41,089 nucleotides of DNA from the NCBI GenBank assembly GCA_025352045.1, contig JANXUD010000096.1, positions 1 to 41,089 on the forward strand, read 5' to 3'. Shown here one piece after another: positions 31,760 through 38,248 of this stretch (its first letter is position 1; the number at the start of each line of letters is the position of its first letter). The stretch comes from Gammaproteobacteria bacterium. GTDB lineage: Bacteria > Pseudomonadota > Gammaproteobacteria > Xanthomonadales > Xanthomonadaceae. The notes beneath the pieces are model-generated. The model worked only from the letters and a program-made list of their open reading frames with translations. It had not been told where the DNA came from and ran no database searches. Made by a program: the position numbers and the translations under genes.

Positions 31760-31835
31760 GGGTCGTTAGCTCAGTTGGTAGAGCAGAAGACTTTTAATCT
31801 TTTGGTCCCGAGTTCGAGTCTCGGACGACCCACCA
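31760..31835 (+). tRNA. tRNA-Lys (anticodon UUU)
   Basis: A full cloverleaf of 76 nt with encoded CCA. The acceptor stem is GGGTCGT/ACGACCC. The D-loop region is TAGCTCAGTTGGTAGAGCA. The anticodon stem AAGA/TCTT holds loop CTTTTAA with anticodon TTT. The T arm is CCGAGTTCGAGTCTCGG. The short anticodon stem carries an A-A at its fifth pair position. The 3' end is the source of the downstream repeats. Confidence 0.97.
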
Positions 31836-32210
31836 TCCAGTCCTAGCAGGACTCGAACTTAATGAGAAAAGCCGGTTTACCCCGGCGAAATGGGAGCCTT
31901 TTGGTTCGCCGGCTTTTCTCCGCCCGCCCGTTTTTGTCGGCCGCAGCCCGATTTTCTCTAAATCGACTTTGGGCGGAAAAAGGTGATTCAGCCTTTTTGC
32001 TCAGGTTCGAGTGCCTGTGAGACCACCATCCAGTCCGGCGGTTCTTGAAACCAAAGAGAGCGCGCCGAGTCTCCCAGCCAAATGCTGGCCTTCCGGGCAT
32101 GGCGCTAATTTTTGTAGGTCGGTTTCGGGAACGTAAGCCCGCGGCTTCTCGAAAAAGGCTTTCCGCCGACAAAGGCTATCTGAACTTTTCTGCTCAGGTT
32201 CAAGTAGCCG
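31802..32210 (+). repeat. rtT-like tRNA-Lys 3'-end repeats, first cluster
   Basis: The tRNA 3' end plus flank (CCACCATCCAGTC, 31830-31842) recurs at 32023-32035, 193 bp downstream, preceded by a T-arm-like CAGGTTCGAGTGCCTG. A third, decayed copy (CTGCTCAGGTTCAAGTAGCC) lies near 32191-32210. The units share diverged sequence between these marks (for example AAAAAGG near the end of each). They contain no convincing gene; Arg-rich minus-strand frames here follow from the repeat composition. Confidence 0.7.
31864..31920 (+). terminator. Long hairpin after tRNA-Lys, possible terminator or processing site
   Basis: GAGAAAAGCCGG (31864-31875) and CCGGCTTTTCTC (31909-31920) are a perfect 12-bp inverted repeat. 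An alternative inner pairing CCGGCGAA/TTCGCCGG (31882-31889 with 31905-31912) competes with it. A T run follows further on (GTTTTTG near 31930). Confidence 0.55.
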
Positions 32211-32449
32211 CTTGCATGGGAAGCAGCCCGCATCTCTCGGAACAAATAGGGACCGCTGACTGGCGACCGAGCGTATGCCTTATTCGCAGGCGTCGAACCT
32301 TGGCCTCTGGACGCGCCGCGCCAACCTCGTGGTAATGCGCTAGAGTTTGCGACGGGGTTCATTTTGCTAAGCATGTTCACGGCTAGTTAGCTAAAACGCC
32401 CCTTTGGCAGTTGCTTAACTGGCGAACACACATAGCGAAGCGAGTCATC
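32211..32449. other. Gap between the first repeat cluster and the hsdM remnant
   Basis: No supported gene. Base composition shifts from GC-rich to more AT-rich at about 32330. The last 110 bp (32340-32449) may be the original upstream region of the hsdM remnant; TTGCTTAACTGG near 32411 is a weak -35-like sequence. Confidence 0.4.
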
Positions 32450-32509
32450 ATGATAACCGGCGAAATCAAGTCGAAAGTCGACAGCATCTGGACATGGCGC
32501 CCGAATTGA
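32450..32509 (+). pseudogene. 5' remnant of a type I restriction methyltransferase gene (hsdM)
   Basis: ATG at 32450 begins MITGEIKSKVDSIW, then TWRPN and a stop. The first 14 residues match the very conserved start of HsdM-type N6-adenine methyltransferases (M-x-TGE-x-KS-x-D-x-IW, normally continuing DAFWSGG). Similarity ends abruptly at about 32491, where an unrelated frame takes over. The rest of hsdM, hsdS and hsdR is absent, so this is a deletion scar of a restriction-modification system. Short match, but position-specific and starting exactly at an ATG. Confidence 0.55.
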
Positions 32510-32844
32510 TTTCAAGCCCGAGTTACGCTGCGGGGGCGCAGTCCATGAAGGGCTTGGGGCATAACGCCGGCGCTCTGGGGGCTGTGCTCGATGTCGCAAA
32601 AGCGTTGAATCCGGAGAATTCGACGGGCGAGCGCATACACGGCGGAGCTGGCGCAACGATATGGGCTGTCACGTCTCTCGCCGGCCAGCCAGAAATTGCC
32701 CTCACATACACCGCTGTCGATCGTGCTGCCAGCAACACGCAGTACATCAATGATGATGGGTCGATCACAAGGGGATACCCGGCTGTCGGACTCTACATCG
32801 AGGATCTGCACATGCGAGACCCGTACGTTATAGGGAATCCTTGA
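32494..32844 (+). CDS. Hypothetical protein, probably the 3' remnant of a larger gene
   Basis: The frame gives 116 aa. I do not recognise a family. It has a Gly/Ala-rich centre (KGLGHNAGALGAVLDVAKAL, then GGAGATIWAVTSLAG) of the kind seen in the last part of RHS-type and other polymorphic secreted toxins, and a hydrophilic end. The ATG at 32494 has no Shine-Dalgarno, and the frame stays open upstream into the hsdM remnant. So the visible N-terminus is likely created by the deletion junction at about 32491. The stop is directly followed by the ATG of a membrane protein gene, so the two were probably a coupled pair. AT-richer than the core genes, consistent with transfer. Confidence 0.45.
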   Translation: MAPELISSPSYAAGAQSMKGLGHNAGALGAVLDVAKALNPENSTGERIHGGAGATIWAVTSLAGQPEIALTYTAVDRAASNTQYINDDGSITRGYPAVGLYIEDLHMRDPYVIGNP

Positions 32845-33333
32845 ATGCTTGACCCAATGCGCGGACTTCGAATGTTGTACGCCGCTGCTGTCGACGCGCA
32901 GAGAATTCGACCAGGAATTGATTTCTATTTCTTTCCGTTCGTATTCTTTAGCATATTCTTTGCGGCTTTTGGCCGAAGTGTTTTCTCATTGCTTGGCTTC
33001 GTTCCACTGAAGGAGCTTTGTAGCGCGCCAACTTCATGCCTCGGTCTAGACGGCACCGAGCTAGCAGGATATGTCATAGGAGTTCTTCTTACGACCGTGC
33101 TTCTGGAGCGGCGAAGTTCTGCGATTCAAGCTGAGTTTGCAGAAGTCTCGGCCAGAACTCTCCCCAGACGAATCGCTGTGCTCTTGCTCACCTTCGGCGT
33201 CGCCTTCGTCGAGTTTTGGCTCAGCTATTGGACGCCTTGGGGTTGCGTCCTGACATCAATCTGCTATCTGTTAGTGCTCACCGGGGCTTCGGATAACGCC
33301 TTTCAGCCGAGCGAAGGTCCGAAGTCCCGATAG
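32845..33333 (+). CDS. Hypothetical four-helix membrane protein
   Basis: The product is 162 aa with four hydrophobic segments at about 27-52 (YFFPFVFFSIFFAAFGRSVF), 70-90, 113-131 and 136-152. No motif I can name. It follows the preceding ORF without a gap (TGA then ATG), which suggests translational coupling. A membrane protein coupled to the end of a possible toxin would fit an immunity protein, but this rests on arrangement alone. Low GC at third positions compared with flanking core genes marks it as acquired. Confidence 0.55.
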   Translation: MLDPMRGLRMLYAAAVDAQRIRPGIDFYFFPFVFFSIFFAAFGRSVFSLLGFVPLKELCSAPTSCLGLDGTELAGYVIGVLLTTVLLERRSSAIQAEFAEVSARTLPRRIAVLLLTFGVAFVEFWLSYWTPWGCVLTSICYLLVLTGASDNAFQPSEGPKSR

Positions 33334-33500
33334 CTGAGCTGAATGCAGCAGCGCTATTGCGATCCGCAGGTGGGGTAAACGGAGCCGCGAAGGAAGCTTC
33401 CATTGCGCTAAAAGAGGGTAGTCAGGCCGCAGCAGGAAGAGCAGCTACTGGCACCGTCGGGGCTGCTCGCGACCTAGACACAGCGCAACGGAATCATTGA
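33297..33500 (+). pseudogene. Open frame without a clear start, possible gene remnant
   Basis: A stop-free frame of 67 codons ends at TGA 33498-33500, overlapping the end of the membrane gene at its 5' side. The reading AELNAAALLRSAGGVNGAAK, then EGSQAAAGRAATGT, is Ala/Gly-rich and looks like the tail of a longer protein. No ATG is present in frame (one TTG). It ends just before the ribosome-binding site of the next small gene. May be chance. Confidence 0.25.
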
Positions 33501-33510
33501 GGGAGTTGTC

Positions 33511-33717
33511 ATGCGGCCAACCATGATTGTCATGTGTTTAACACTTTTTCTTACGGCGTGTTCAATATTTTCGCTGTTTTTGACTCGAGTTGTATTGGGC
33601 CGAAACTCAATTACTGTTTTTGGCGTCGTGCTCTTGGTTGTCGCTTTGGCCTGCGTCTGGTGGCTGGTAAAGATCGCACTCGCGTACGTAAGGGGCGAGG
33701 GGCATAAGTTTCGATAG
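33511..33717 (+). CDS. Small membrane protein, two helices
   Basis: The product is 68 aa with two hydrophobic stretches (about 4-26 and 34-58) and a basic end. GAGGGAG lies 5-11 nt before the ATG, a good ribosome-binding site. No family recognised. The sequence up to Cys17 (IVMCLTLFLTAC) could alternatively be read as a lipoprotein signal. AT-richer than the core. Confidence 0.5.
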   Translation: MRPTMIVMCLTLFLTACSIFSLFLTRVVLGRNSITVFGVVLLVVALACVWWLVKIALAYVRGEGHKFR

Positions 33718-33779
33718 GCGAATCGGTCCGCCTTAGGTCGATCGAGTTAACTTCAGTAGCAGCCGCGCATCATCCGCAA

Positions 33780-33808
33780 CAAAAAGCCCGCGCACTGCGC
33801 GGACTTTT
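33780..33808 (+). terminator. Rho-independent terminator after the 68-aa gene
   Basis: AAAAAGCCCGCGC and GCGCGGACTTTT pair with one mismatch around a 3-nt ACT loop and end in a T run. Confidence 0.8.
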
Positions 33809-34200
33809 CGTTGCCGCTGCGGCAGCTTACTGCTGCGACGTCCCCCGCGACGTCCCCCCGCTTTCAGTAGCGGGAGTGACTGGAGTCCGGTTTAAGGTCG
33901 TAGGACCGGCCACTGCGCACTTCCTGACGTGGGGCGGATTGCTGAGACCGCATATGGCCCCGGTCCAGTAGCTGCTTCAGGCTACACCCGCTCGGTGGAA
34001 GTTACCCTCGACCCTGCTCGTCGTCGGGAAACGGATTTTCGTTCCCTGATAGCGGAGCAGGGAATCGGGCAGCAGAGGGCTTCGTAGCTGCTGCTTAGCC
34101 CGGCAAAGCGGTGGAGGCGATTCGAAATCGCAATATTTCTCTGTTATTTTCGCTGAAAGCAGGCAATTGGCGGCTGAGAGGCTTGAGCAGCTGACTGCGC
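33809..34200. other. Gap without a convincing gene
   Basis: A tandem CGACGTCCCCCG-type duplication occurs at 33836-33860. A plus-strand frame is open from 33896 to 34087 and reads ASGYTRSVEVTLDPARRRET near its end, but it has only GTG starts and is short enough to be chance. A minus-strand frame at 33977-34210 looks like its shadow. AT-rich sequence near 34125-34155 has no clear role. Confidence 0.35.
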
Positions 34201-34500
34201 CCACCACCATCCAGTCGGGTTTTTCTCGGAACCAAGCAGAAATCGCTCATTCTTTTGGCCAAATGCAGGCCTCCTGGTCCCTGGGCTTTTCTGGGCCATG
34301 GGTGTCACCGCCCATGACTCGCGTTTTCTCCAAGTCGGCCGGTCGGGCAAAAAGGTGGGCCAGCTTTCGCCCCCAAGTTCGAGTGCCTGTCAGACCTCCA
34401 TCCAGTCGGGTGATTTTCCAAACCTAGAGAAATCGCCCATTCTGTTGGCCATGCATGCCTCCCTGACGGCCAATCTGAGTCGGTTTGGGGCTTTCCTCGG
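34194..34500 (+). repeat. rtT-like tRNA-Lys 3'-end repeats, second cluster
   Basis: CCACCATCCAGTC at 34204-34216 and CCTCCATCCAGTC at 34395-34407 are 191 bp apart; the second follows AAGTTCGAGTGCCTGTCAGA, again T-arm-like. The start of the unit repeats: AGAAATCGC, then CATTC, TTGGCCA and GCCTCC occur after both copies. The end of the unit (TTTTCTCCAAGTCGG, then AAAAAGGTG) matches the end of the first unit behind tRNA-Lys (TTTTCTCTAAATCGA, then AAAAAGGTG). Confidence 0.7.
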
Positions 34501-34659
34501 CGTAGTCGTCAGGGTGTTGATGTCTGCCTTCGGCCAACTGCGGACTGTCGCAGGGCGCAACTTGAAGCAAGCTGCCGCTCTGGCGGCCGCTCTGGCGGCC
34601 GCGCGGCTGGCTCAAGAGCACGATTTATTCCTAGTCGGCGATCTCACTGCTGCGCACGC
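34501..34659. other. Gap between the second repeat cluster and the sigma factor gene
   Basis: Holds a short direct repeat GCTCTGGCGGCC twice in tandem (about 34577-34601). No gene or terminator identified. Confidence 0.4.
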
Positions 34660-35199
34660 TCAGGTCTTCGGGCACATACCCGGACCGAGGAGATACTCCT
34701 GTACGAGCGACCGCGCACGATGCAATCGACTCTTGATCGCTCCGGGCTGCTCGTCGAGCCGCTCGGCCATTTCGGCGATCGTGCACTCCTCGAAATCGCG
34801 CAACAGGATGACTTCGAGGTAGTGCGCCGGCAGCGACTCGAGAGCGTTGGCAAGATCGATCCGTAACGCGTCGTCGGTCCCGCATGCCAACTGATGCTGC
34901 GCAAGATCCTCGTCGAGAGGATCGTTCTTGAACATCATCCGCGCAAGCCTTTGGCACTCGCGCCTGATGACCGTAAAAATCCAGGAGGAAAAAGCTACCG
35001 CTGCTTTGAGCCCCTTGACCTTGCGCGAGATGACCAGAAGCGCCTCCTGGACCGCATCATCGACATCGCTGGCCTGACAATGCTTGTACGCGTATCGACG
35101 GACGTCTGCCTGGCATGCGGCCAAGAGGCGCCCGATGGCGGCGGGATCGCCGGTCTGAGCGGCAAAGATCAGATTGTCCCGGTCGATCCCGCCATTCAT
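34660..35199 (-). CDS. ECF-type RNA polymerase sigma factor
   Basis: The product is 179 aa. Region 2 spans about 20-90, with the SDVDDAVQEALLVISRKVKGL core and WIFTVIRRECQRLAR for -10 recognition and melting. Region 4 spans about 110-170, with LESLPAHYLEVILLRDFEECTIAEMAERL and a helix-turn-helix ending AIKSRLHRARS. It would direct RNA polymerase to a small set of promoters. No anti-sigma gene is adjacent. The only partner is a small DUF2892 membrane protein 3 bp upstream on the same strand, so the two form an operon. Confidence 0.9.
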   Translation of the reverse strand: MNGGIDRDNLIFAAQTGDPAAIGRLLAACQADVRRYAYKHCQASDVDDAVQEALLVISRKVKGLKAAVAFSSWIFTVIRRECQRLARMMFKNDPLDEDLAQHQLACGTDDALRIDLANALESLPAHYLEVILLRDFEECTIAEMAERLDEQPGAIKSRLHRARSLVQEYLLGPGMCPKT

Positions 35200-35202
35200 C
35201 GG

Positions 35203-35412
35203 TCAGTGATCCTTGTCGAGCTTGCGACCGGCCATCGCGCACATGGGGCAAAAGCCCAACAGGCCGGTCATGGAAAGCATGGCGCCCATGATGCCAGCAC
35301 CGACGGCAAGTGACGATCCGCCCCAATTCGACCAAGCAACGGCCAACGCCATCACGCCCATGAGCACCCGTAGTGCACGTTCCCAGCCCGGTATGTTTTT
35401 GACGTAGAACAT
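35203..35412 (-). CDS. DUF2892 (YgaP-type) small membrane protein with CPMC motif
   Basis: The product is 69 aa. The N-terminal MFYVKNIPGWERALRVLMGV and two hydrophobic helices (about 12-30 and 33-52) are typical of DUF2892. The C-terminus has GFCPMCAMAGRKLDKDH, with two cysteines spaced CxxC at the membrane border, which could be a redox or metal site. AGGGAG lies 6 nt before the ATG and fixes the start; the frame is open further upstream without homology. First gene of a two-gene operon with the ECF sigma factor. Confidence 0.85.
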   Translation of the reverse strand: MFYVKNIPGWERALRVLMGVMALAVAWSNWGGSSLAVGAGIMGAMLSMTGLLGFCPMCAMAGRKLDKDH

Positions 35413-35589
35413 GTCTTTCTCCCTGGATTGTTTTGCAATTGAGGACTGCCCTCGGAAGCCAAGAGGCGGCTTGGGTGCAAAACGGTTCGCGGGAGGAGAA
35501 AAAAGTTTCGATGGTCGGCATGGCTCAACTAACACCTGCCGTTGTCAAATGACCGCAATGGACCACCCAGAAGCAGGCGTCCGTACCGC

Positions 35590-35650
35590 GCCTGACGCCT
35601 GGATCAAGCTGAAGCCGCGAAGCGGCTTGGGCTGGAATGATTTGCCGGGC
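35590..35650 (-). other. Integron-type attC site (59-base element) A
   Basis: Read on the minus strand, the site runs R'' GCCCGGC, then AAATCATTCCAGC, a stem AAGCCGC-TTC-GCGGCTT, then AGCTTGATCCAGGC, and R' GTCAGGC. This is the layout of classic 60-bp attC sites. R' matches GTTRRRY at 6/7 and R'' matches RYYYAAC at 5/7 (AA replaced by GG). It begins 15 bp after the stop of the 163-aa gene, as expected for the attC of a cassette. Confidence 0.78.
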
Positions 35651-35665
35651 GACGTGCGAGGCCAA

Positions 35666-36157
35666 TCATTTCAGGTGTGGATGCAAAGCCTTGTGATGGC
35701 TGGTGCTGAGTTCATGGTCCACGTACGCAACGAATCGTGGACTGAACATTTCCTTTGCATCCGCCCACCAGATACGGCCGCTCTTACTTGCGATCACGGA
35801 CAAGTTTGCACGCGCGAAACCTTGTATAAGCCCGATATCTACGAGGTTTAATGCGCGCTGGTAGTACACACCTTCGAATCTTCGAGTTGCCATGACAAAT
35901 GCGATGTAGAGCCTTGCCCGCTCGAGTTCCGTCAGGCTGTTCTCATCGGCGCTGGCCTTTAGGGAAATAGCAACCAGGCTTTCGTTTTCTGCCCACACCT
36001 GGGAATTGCTGCTCAGGCTTTGAATCAAATTCTGGATAGTTGAGGCCTTAACGGCCTTGGTGCCTTGGCGAAGCTGCATCGCAACAAACAAGAGCGACAC
36101 GATAACGCCTATCGCGGCGGCAAGTTGGGACAGGTCTGCCAGTGTCTTAAGGTTCAT
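35666..36157 (-). CDS. Cassette-borne hypothetical membrane-anchored protein
   Basis: The product is 163 aa. One N-terminal hydrophobic helix (about 7-27, DLSQLAAAIGVIVSLLFVAM) is followed by a helical soluble domain: QLRQGTKAVKAS, LTELERARLYIAFVMATRRFE and IWWADAKEMFSPRFV. Proteins of this plan (short anchor, QLRQ-T-A motif, then a helical domain with a conserved Trp pair) are common uncharacterised proteins in marine and soil proteobacteria. No enzyme motif is visible. The start is the ATG at 36157, 14 bp after the R' box of attC B; the stop is 15 bp before attC A. Gene and sites together form a complete integron cassette of about 580 bp. Confidence 0.75.
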   Translation of the reverse strand: MNLKTLADLSQLAAAIGVIVSLLFVAMQLRQGTKAVKASTIQNLIQSLSSNSQVWAENESLVAISLKASADENSLTELERARLYIAFVMATRRFEGVYYQRALNLVDIGLIQGFARANLSVIASKSGRIWWADAKEMFSPRFVAYVDHELSTSHHKALHPHLK

Positions 36158-36171
36158 GGTTTTCGCGAGTC

Positions 36172-36278
36172 GCCTGACACCTGAATTGAGCCCCAGACTC
36201 TGCGGAGGCAATAGGAATGAAGAAGGACCTTCGAAGTCTGCCGCCATGAACGGTGTTCGGTTAAATGAATTGTTGGAT
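36172..36278 (-). other. Integron-type attC site B
   Basis: On the minus strand it runs R'' ATCCAAC (7/7 to RYYYAAC), then AATTCATTTAACC, a long imperfect palindrome including AGACT/AGTCT, then GGCTCAATTCAGGT, and R' GTCAGGC. R' is identical to that of attC A. At 107 bp it is within the attC size range. It stands immediately upstream of the 163-aa gene in cassette orientation. Confidence 0.75.
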
Positions 36279-36763
36279 GCGGGGCGTGAGTAGTCCCATA
36301 CCCGGGATCCGCTGCTGTAACCAAAAGGCGGGCATCGTTCTGCCGGTAGTCGGAAAGCCGTGCCCACGGGTGTTCACGGAACGCCAAGGGTTGCCTCCTT
36401 CGGGCAATGCTTGTTGGCGAGTCTAGGCCGCGGCTCACCGCTGGGCAATTCGTCACCCTCACGGCGTTCGGCCCACCCTGCAAACCGCGGCAAGGGCGAC
36501 GTTTCCCGGCTGACGCCCAGGCGGCGAAAGCCGTGCTGCGTGAGGCCATCCAGATCCAGGAACACCTGGCGGCGCAGGACGCATTGCCGCAGAAGCTGAT
36601 CGAAGAACTGGTGGATCGAAAAGCGCCCCGGGACCACGCAGACGCGGTTCCCCCCAGCAATCCAATGACGGGACGTAGAGGAGCATTCGGCAGATCGCCA
36701 TGCAAACGGGGCCTTGGCTTGGCCGCATCCAGTCCCGTCGATGACGCCCTGGCAGGCGCCGGG
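36279..36763. other. Stretch between attC B and the RNB gene; palindrome and possible gene end
   Basis: No supported complete gene. A nested palindrome lies at 36382-36419 (CGCCAA/TTGGCG outside, TTGCC/GGCAA inside). A plus-strand frame at about 36505-36660 reads ADAQAAKAVLREAIQIQEHL, then PQKLIEELVDRK, which looks like genuine helical protein but has no start nearby and runs on without homology. It may be the 3' end of a lost gene. Confidence 0.4.
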
Positions 36764-38248
36764 TCAGAGGCCCGGGCTTGCCGCGACGATCTCGAAGCGT
36801 GTCAGCCGGCGTGAAGGATCGGCCTCGACCAGTCGCACGGTGACATCCGCGCCGAGGACCAATTCGGCGGTGGTGCTCACGCCTGCCTCGATCGCCGGTT
36901 CGCGCAGCATGACGACGCCGCCGTGCGCTGCGTTGCCCGCTGGTTGAGCGCGCGGGTTTCCGTTGCCTGACACTTCGATGATTGCCCCTGCGAAGGTCTC
37001 GCCGATGCGCGGCGCCATGATCACCGCTTCGGTCAGGTCGATCACGGCGCGCTCGTACTGGCGGGCGCGATGGTCCGCCGCCTGCATGGTCGGCGGGAGG
37101 CCCGGCAAGGCGGCCAGCACCCAGACCGGAACCGGCTGCTTCGCGCACAGTGCGACGCACACTTCGCCCGCGTAGCGATCCGCCAGCCGGCGCAGGGGCG
37201 CGGTGACATGGGCATATTCGGCGGCCAGCGCCGAGTGCATGGGCTGGTCGGGAAGGGCACCGTTGAAGGCGGCGTAACCGGCGCCGCGCAGGACAGTGGT
37301 GCAGGCCGTCATCATGGCGACGTGCGCATCCTGCGCGGGGTCGAGGGTGCGGATGAAATCGGGATAGGACTGCGCGTCCGGCCACGCGATGCCGAGCGCC
37401 TGCGCAGTCAGGCGCAGGCGCTGGATGGATCGTGGATCCGGCGGCGGCAGGGTGCGCAGCAGGCCGACCTTGGCCTGGACCATCAACCTGGCCCCGGCCA
37501 TGCCGGTCAGCAACGAAATCTGTGCGTTCCAGTCCTCCACCGGATGATTGACGCGATAGGCCAGTTCCCAGCGTCCGTCGGCGAAGCGGATCTCCTGTTC
37601 GGGCAGGGCGAGGCTGACGCCGCCGCGCGCCTGCTCGAGCCGCTGGCGCAGCTCGCCAACCGCCTGCAGGACGCCCCACATCGGGTCCGCGTCGCCGGCA
37701 TCGATGCGTTGCTGGACACCTGCGTAATCGAGCTTGGCTCGGCTACGGACCCGCGCGCGACGCACGTCGGTCGCGATGATCTCGCCGCTGGCGTCCAGGT
37801 CGATAGTCCACAGCAAGGCCGGGCGGAGCTGGTCGGGCAACAGCGAGGCCGCGCCTTCGGACAACACCGGGGGGTGCAGCGTGATGCGCGAGTCCGCGCC
37901 ATACAGGGTCACGCCGCGCCGATGCGCCTCCATGTCCACCGGGTCGCCCGCAGTGACGAAGGCGGCGACGTCGGCGATGGCGTAATACACGCGATAGTCG
38001 CCGCCGAGGCGCTCGAGGTACATGGCCTGGTCAAGGTCCATCGATCCGGGAGGATCGATCGTGACGAAGGGCAGGTCGGTGCGATCCAGATCGGGCAGTC
38101 GCGGATTGGCCGCGGCGTGCGCGGCGGCGGCCTCGACCTCGGGCGGAAAGGCCAGCGGCAGTTGCAGCTCGCGCTGGATGCCTGCGATGCCTTCTTCGAA
38201 GCTGAAGTCACCCGAGGGCTGGATGTGGATGCGTTGGGTCGTCGGCAC
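36764..38248 (-). CDS. RNB-domain exoribonuclease (RNase II/R family, short form)
   Basis: The product is 494 aa, against about 640-810 for RNase II and RNase R. The RNB domain covers about 50-400: FVTIDPPGSMDLDQAMYLERL holds the metal-binding Asp65, Asp71 and Asp73, and TAPLRRLADRYAGEV is the later conserved motif. Gln74 stands where RNase II has a fourth Asp, as in many DPPGSxDLDQ-type relatives. The N-terminal cold-shock domains are missing, and a degenerate S1-like region lies at about 410-494. It probably degrades single-stranded RNA 3' to 5'. Same strand as the phosphodiesterase upstream. Confidence 0.88.
   Translation of the reverse strand: MPTTQRIHIQPSGDFSFEEGIAGIQRELQLPLAFPPEVEAAAAHAAANPRLPDLDRTDLPFVTIDPPGSMDLDQAMYLERLGGDYRVYYAIADVAAFVTAGDPVDMEAHRRGVTLYGADSRITLHPPVLSEGAASLLPDQLRPALLWTIDLDASGEIIATDVRRARVRSRAKLDYAGVQQRIDAGDADPMWGVLQAVGELRQRLEQARGGVSLALPEQEIRFADGRWELAYRVNHPVEDWNAQISLLTGMAGARLMVQAKVGLLRTLPPPDPRSIQRLRLTAQALGIAWPDAQSYPDFIRTLDPAQDAHVAMMTACTTVLRGAGYAAFNGALPDQPMHSALAAEYAHVTAPLRRLADRYAGEVCVALCAKQPVPVWVLAALPGLPPTMQAADHRARQYERAVIDLTEAVIMAPRIGETFAGAIIEVSGNGNPRAQPAGNAAHGGVVMLREPAIEAGVSTTAELVLGADVTVRLVEADPSRRLTRFEIVAASPGL

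Follow-up and report, generated by a model that had tools for sequence, protein, structure and literature searches.

The window analysed here, 41,089 bases long and identical with the whole of contig C83 in a genome of 141 contigs (G000), contains a complete gene cassette flanked by two attC-type sites. The segment is very probably a CALIN relic of one cassette, probably immobile, with sites of an attC type common in the genus, and it lies within a low-GC variable segment between tRNA-Lys and recQ. The features concerned are as follows.

31760..31835, plus strand: tRNA-Lys (ttt), left edge of the low-GC segment.
31836..36520: low-GC segment holding the cassette, delimited by composition, with an approximate right edge and no counterpart in the relatives examined.
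35590..35650, minus strand: attC A, the cassette's own site, 61 bp, with R'' GCCCGGC at 35650-35644 and R' GTCAGGC at 35596-35590.
35596..36177, minus strand: predicted cassette unit, 582 bp, between the two G/TC cut points as read from the sequence.
35666..36157, minus strand: cassette gene, an ORF of 163 aa (ATG...TGA) belonging to no named family.
36172..36278, minus strand: attC B, the upstream boundary site, 107 bp, with R'' ATCCAAC at 36278-36272 and R' GTCAGGC at 36178-36172.
36524..36685, plus strand: 3' gene remnant, 63% over 54 aa to a 216-aa ORF on contig C112 of the same genome.

Read along the minus strand, the order is attC B, ORF, attC A, which is the normal cassette order. The R' box is the one that holds the integron cut point. 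The R' of attC B stands 14 bp before the ATG, the TGA stands 15 bp before the R'' of attC A, and the centre of attC A reads AAGCCGC-TTC-GCGGCTT. A single gene is thus followed by its attC and bounded by two co-oriented R' boxes, as is required of an integron cassette. The initial annotation had claimed an attC-like pair with a common R' (GTCAGGC) around a 163-aa gene, as well as GG for AA in the R'' of attC A; order, spacing and boxes are all present as described, and that R'' is indeed GCCCGGC.

Statistical support for the two sites comes from a covariance model (R1) and from a separate scan of half-sites. R1 was built from 24 attC sites of other genus members only, leaving out the window and its own genome, the sites having been picked from arrays of the other genomes by a strict RYYYAAC/GTTRRRY rule. 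With filters off, the best match in the window is attC A (35.6 bits, E=3.2e-7), followed by attC B (11.7 bits, E=0.75, alone not significant); the covariance-model check proposed in the initial annotation, carried out here with our own model, places both sites at the head of the list, attC A with significance and attC B without. Eighteen matches are listed for the whole window at E<=10, the opposite strand of attC A coming third and chance-level scatter after it. When R1 is applied to 34300-36800 only, the E-value of attC B falls to 0.045, though the opposite strand of attC A also comes to 0.088. In a whole-genome search in which 150 of 5,421 candidates were scored, attC A is found at E=2.3e-5; the 15 rows at E<=10 do not include attC B. 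The attC A region gives short matches of 76-91% in other genomes of the same genus, and no Rfam family is found at gathering score over either site.

Since R1, trained mostly on sites of 56-60 bp, must span the 107 bp of attC B, the halves were also scored apart, using position-weight matrices for the R''-L'' and L'-R' halves trained on the same 24 sites and 30 first-order Markov random sequences as a control. For one half attC B scores 24.7 and attC A 17.9 bits against a random maximum of 11.0; for the other half the scores are 19.9 and 14.3 bits against 13.1. For each half, no other place in the whole window, on either strand, scores as high as these two sites. The halves of both sites thus lead the ranking and exceed the random maxima, and the two sites are therefore attC-derived. 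Consensus half-patterns, chosen after the sites had been seen, find attC B alone, with 2 mismatches in each half where the chance means are 0.00 and 0.02. Neither the half-site scan nor R1 on 34300-36800 finds a third attC near the cassette: below the two sites, the best remaining minus-strand scores in 35300-36800 are 1.2 bits for the right half and -9.3 bits for the left half. Two candidates for a third site, GTCAGCC at 36514-36508 and CAGGTGTTAG within 35527-35547, were rejected on these low scores.

Both sites depart from the conserved boxes. The conserved attC triplets are given as AAC for R'' and GTT for R' in the available part of PMC2727003. Here R' begins with GTC in attC A and attC B alike, and R'' ends in GGC in A and in AAC in B; lacking the triplets of an intact attC, the sites are filed as attC-derived. 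For comparison, 138 sites were aligned, namely those that remain of the best 150 of 226 R1 matches once the window's own site and 11 copies that overlap or lie on the opposite strand are set aside. R' starts with GTT in 125 of them and with GTC in 2; at the end of R'', 125 have AAC and 3 have GAC, in a sample that is biased to GTT and under-represents decayed boxes because R1 was trained on GTT only and the weaker 76 matches were left unaligned. Given the rarity of GTC at R', as counted in this GTT-biased sample, decay is likelier than a lineage type. For the GTC common to both R' boxes, decay in a genome of 67% G+C is the best reading, though the triplet could also be shared through common origin. 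Of 44 arm positions of attC A, 10 depart from the consensus of the relatives, and in 7 of these an A or T has given way to G or C.

Pairing points partly the same way. In unconstrained folding with DNA parameters, L-arm pairs are fewer in the bottom strand of attC B than in any of the 138 sites, and this strand takes no canonical fold; the arms of attC B are well conserved in sequence and its stem pairing is largely lost. The L-arm pairing of attC A is ordinary (41 of the 138 sites are lower), so its decay is only partial, and its R arms hardly pair. By a crude measure R-box pairing is low in both, with 11 of the 138 sites below attC A and 7 below attC B. As to the effect of a GTC triplet, no test was met in the available parts of PMC2727003, PMC3053210 and PMC10127599, which state the conserved triplet, nor anything in that of PMC8946536. 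Constraints on the second triplet base are called lax in the available part of PMC10127599; the window's sites differ at the third base.

An integron integrase is present elsewhere in the genome. An open IntI frame of 371 aa lies on contig C10 (TIGR02249, 460 bits against a cut-off of 265), with an attC site upstream of it on the opposite strand (L002:475-561). It is the only IntI of the genome over the cut-off. None is on C83, where there is accordingly no intI beside an array, as a complete integron would have, and no integrase near the cassette, as is expected of a CALIN. The initial annotation had described the cassette as without an integrase and had advised a search for intI: this description holds for the contig and fails for the genome, which has the integrase on C10 and attC matches on six contigs besides C83. 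Its suggestion of a CALIN stands as far as the integrase of the contig is concerned. With respect to the two-site threshold that accompanies the CALIN definition in the available part of PMC9024848, two sites are counted by the half-site scan and one by the full R1 model at the usual threshold.

The 15 genomic R1 rows at E<=10, again from 150 of 5,421 candidates scored, represent 14 distinct places on C87, C8, C67, C10, C137, C81 and C83 (the last being attC A), and a locus searched directly gave a further match at base 123 of C67 (L046:123-179). Outside C83, 12 of the 13 places lie no more than 2 kb from a contig end and the remaining one, C81:6610, lies at 2.6 kb, a clustering that would be expected from an array broken in assembly. 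In the genus as a whole, own genome included, IntI exceeds the curated cut-off in 21 of 27 genomes and R1 matches at E<=0.001 occur in 23 of 27. Both intI and attC are common in the genus, and cassette sources are therefore at hand. The largest number of R1 rows at E<=0.001 among the 27 members is 103, in the 3.3-Mb genome G026, where a site may in some cases be listed twice, once for each strand.

The sites of the cassette are closer to those of relatives than to those of the local array. Over 48 arm bases, attC A has a mean of 25.8 matches to nine own-genome sites versus 32.7 to 103 sites of genus relatives, with a best match to a relative of 38/48; for attC B the corresponding values are 30.4, 34.5 and 40/48. 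Judged by these arm sequences, the sites look like the relatives' type rather than the local array's, and the local integron may therefore never have handled the cassette.

The chromosomal surroundings are variable as well. G+C content, taken in 800-base steps, is 53-60% from tRNA-Lys to about 36.5 kb and 66-72% on both sides. To the left lie tolB, pal, ybgF, queE and queC (identified by NCBIfam), followed by tRNA-Lys. A 32-base piece comprising the 3' end of tRNA-Lys and the bases beyond recurs at 32005 (75%) and 34377 (72%), and partly at 34203; such repeats are possibly old att-like repeats, remains of successive island insertions, and short repeats can also be due to chance. At the right edge, the 5' part of the gene remnant at 36524-36685 was not found beside it, and the 216-aa ORF on C112 that it resembles matches no Pfam family at E<=0.1.

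Counting its own, 25 of 27 genus genomes have the queC protein. For 15 of the 24 besides its own, the region downstream of queC was fetched, with a length of 9-15 kb in 14 of them and of 1.4 kb in G023. queC and tRNA-Lys are together in all 15. recQ, identified by NCBIfam in the window and in G001, follows tRNA-Lys in 10 of the 15 at 1,163-6,146 bp, compared with 7,601 bp in the window; in four others there is none within the 11-14 kb read, and the contig of G023 ends too soon. In tblastn at E<=1e-4, none of the 15 regions matches the cassette gene, the ECF sigma factor, the DUF2892 gene, RNB or the GDPD piece; tblastx gives no match to 31836-36764 there, and R1 none at E<=0.1. With gene, attC and segment all without a match in these relatives, the cassette lies within a stretch that has no counterpart there, at a variable tRNA-Lys-recQ interval. 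The right-hand neighbour RNB is found in only one of 27 genus genomes, its own (E<=1e-30), and in 19 of 297 family genomes, own included (E<=1e-40). An orthologous empty site was sought by way of RNB and none was accepted, the 18 other loci having no ECF, DUF2892 or cassette gene within a flank of at most 1.5 kb. In the presence/absence comparison proposed by the initial annotation, then, gene and attC were not found at the tRNA-Lys locus in any of the 15 relatives fetched, and a precise empty site with rejoined cassette edges is not seen because the flanks themselves vary.

The same interval has features of its own in some relatives. In G026 (L190, C1:1398000-1412700) tRNA-Lys is followed by a low-GC stretch, as well as by another, weaker tRNA match whose end lies about 2.6 kb on; the same tRNA-Lys site may have received another insert there. 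Tandem tRNA-Lys genes (ttt, then ctt) follow queC in L199 (G007) and L200 (G022), and a single one does in the other 13 regions.

Three other explanations of the segment were considered. The window could be a broken-off end of the genome's own working integron array, parted from intI by assembly, as might be suspected in a genome of 141 contigs with attC matches on six other contigs and 12 of 13 places close to contig ends. Against this, the 41-kb contig runs on for 4.8 kb beyond the cassette, which stands between queC-tRNA-Lys and recQ; the sites differ from those of the genome's own array, and no third attC was found nearby. Together these points make the explanation highly improbable. The alternative in the initial annotation, the end of a longer array, finds no support, given the same lack of a nearby third site and a tRNA-Lys-recQ stretch without counterpart in the relatives examined. 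Chance resemblance, in which an ordinary chromosomal gene would happen to have a palindrome and a few heptamers next to it, could be argued from the E-value of attC B alone; given the E-value of attC A, and the halves of both sites that exceed the maxima of 30 random sequences and take the top two places in the window, it is the least probable of all and can practically be dismissed.

A lineage with a genuine GTC triplet, in which both sites would be functional variants matched to a variant integrase, would agree with the identical GTCAGGC boxes, and one site in G003 with GAC in R'' and GTC in R' does keep its pairing. In the window, attC A instead sets GTC against GGC, not GAC, and attC B sets it against AAC and takes no canonical fold; GTC at R' and GAC at R'' are moreover as rare as stated above in the GTT-leaning sample. 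Such a lineage is thus very unlikely. The initial annotation had left the choice between decaying sites and a lineage-specific attC type: divergent boxes and, in part, weak pairing favour the former, and the scarcity of GTC (2/138, against 125/138 for GTT, with the GTT bias of the sample) speaks against the latter.

The product of the cassette gene has one hydrophobic, putative membrane segment at about residues 12-29, as read from the sequence, followed by about 130 aa. It has no Pfam or NCBIfam match above cut-offs; PADLOC gives one weak match (AbiEii, E=0.003, 49 residues), and a plasmid of Microvirga lotononidis gives the one plasmid match (33%). The PADLOC, Pfam and NCBIfam results speak neither for nor against the defence or stress function raised in the initial annotation. 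Among 50 candidate stretches of genome contigs no relative was confirmed. In a family search 5 of 395 genomes match at E<=1e-4, and 7 of 398 match in a phylum search, own included in each; over both searches there are homologues in 10 other genomes, with identities of 22-34%. One of these, in another genus of the family (L109 of G102, at 1447-1944; 22% identity, E=6e-7), sits in a run of six attC sites and is flanked by those at 1320-1397 and 1997-2056. It is the only one of the 10 homologue loci with R1 sites; R1 being built for one attC type, sites of other types at the remaining nine would be missed. An alignment of eight members has a common layout and only two invariant columns. A small membrane-anchored accessory protein is our best guess for the product, held with low confidence.

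The cassette gene has stayed open and may still be in use. A crude neutral simulation gives a probability of 0.11-0.16 that the ORF remains free of stops at 15% change, and of 0.06-0.10 at 20%, which is too weak for a claim of selection on the ORF. Promoter and terminator scanning found nothing, where 0.5 and 1.4 are expected by chance. Domestication, whereby the recombination sites decayed while selection kept the frame and the former integron cargo turned into a fixed gene of the chromosome, within a tRNA-linked island, is a possible but rather doubtful outcome.

For the stranded cassette the following history is proposed. From its anatomy and from known integron biology, an integron integrase would have taken up the cassette in circular form and, by recombining the folded bottom strand of its attC, placed it behind another cassette, giving the order attC B, gene, attC A. 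The cassette would then have parted from its integrase, either through break-up of the array or through transfer with the island. Substitutions would have spoiled both cleavage triplets (GTT to GTC, if GTT is ancestral) and the pairing of attC B, and the cassette is now probably fixed in place despite the open-frame integrase elsewhere in the genome. Its past mobility, its present immobility and its route to the tRNA-Lys site are what we infer from the state of the sites and their position. No new mechanism is called for.

The locus presents a small, clean case of cassette cargo stranded in a chromosome, with worn edges, an open gene and a variable place beside a tRNA, and it adds one more locus to the CALIN positions of the family. 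It also illustrates that integrase loss must not be inferred from a single contig. No general view is changed.

Comparable elements have been described close by. In the available part of a paper on Xanthomonas, about half of the genomes are reported to have CALINs at places other than the ilvD/intI locus. The window resembles these in having two attC-type sites and an integrase that is not nearby but elsewhere in the genome; it differs in having a single cassette with both sites decayed, one of them not significant in R1, and in its position, tRNA-Lys-recQ not being among the loci named in that part of the paper (lamG, secF, secD, recD and others). Carriers of the Xanthomonadales-like attC clade include Pseudoxanthomonas, Thermomonas and Lysobacter according to the available part of PMC8352920, and the host of the window is probably of the same bacterial family. 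Within the genus, the nearest parallel in our data is L037 of G003 (C1:377500-381500), where R' likewise has C for T (GTCAGGC, GCCAGGT) and coding-length stretches separate successive sites; there, in contrast to the isolated cassette of the window, a run of sites lies on the intI contig, 7-8 kb beyond intI (C1:371451-372392). L037 is a place where attC decay could be studied along a single array. In this company the stranded cassette looks like an ordinary element for the bacterial family, a fossil of a well-known gene-capture system.
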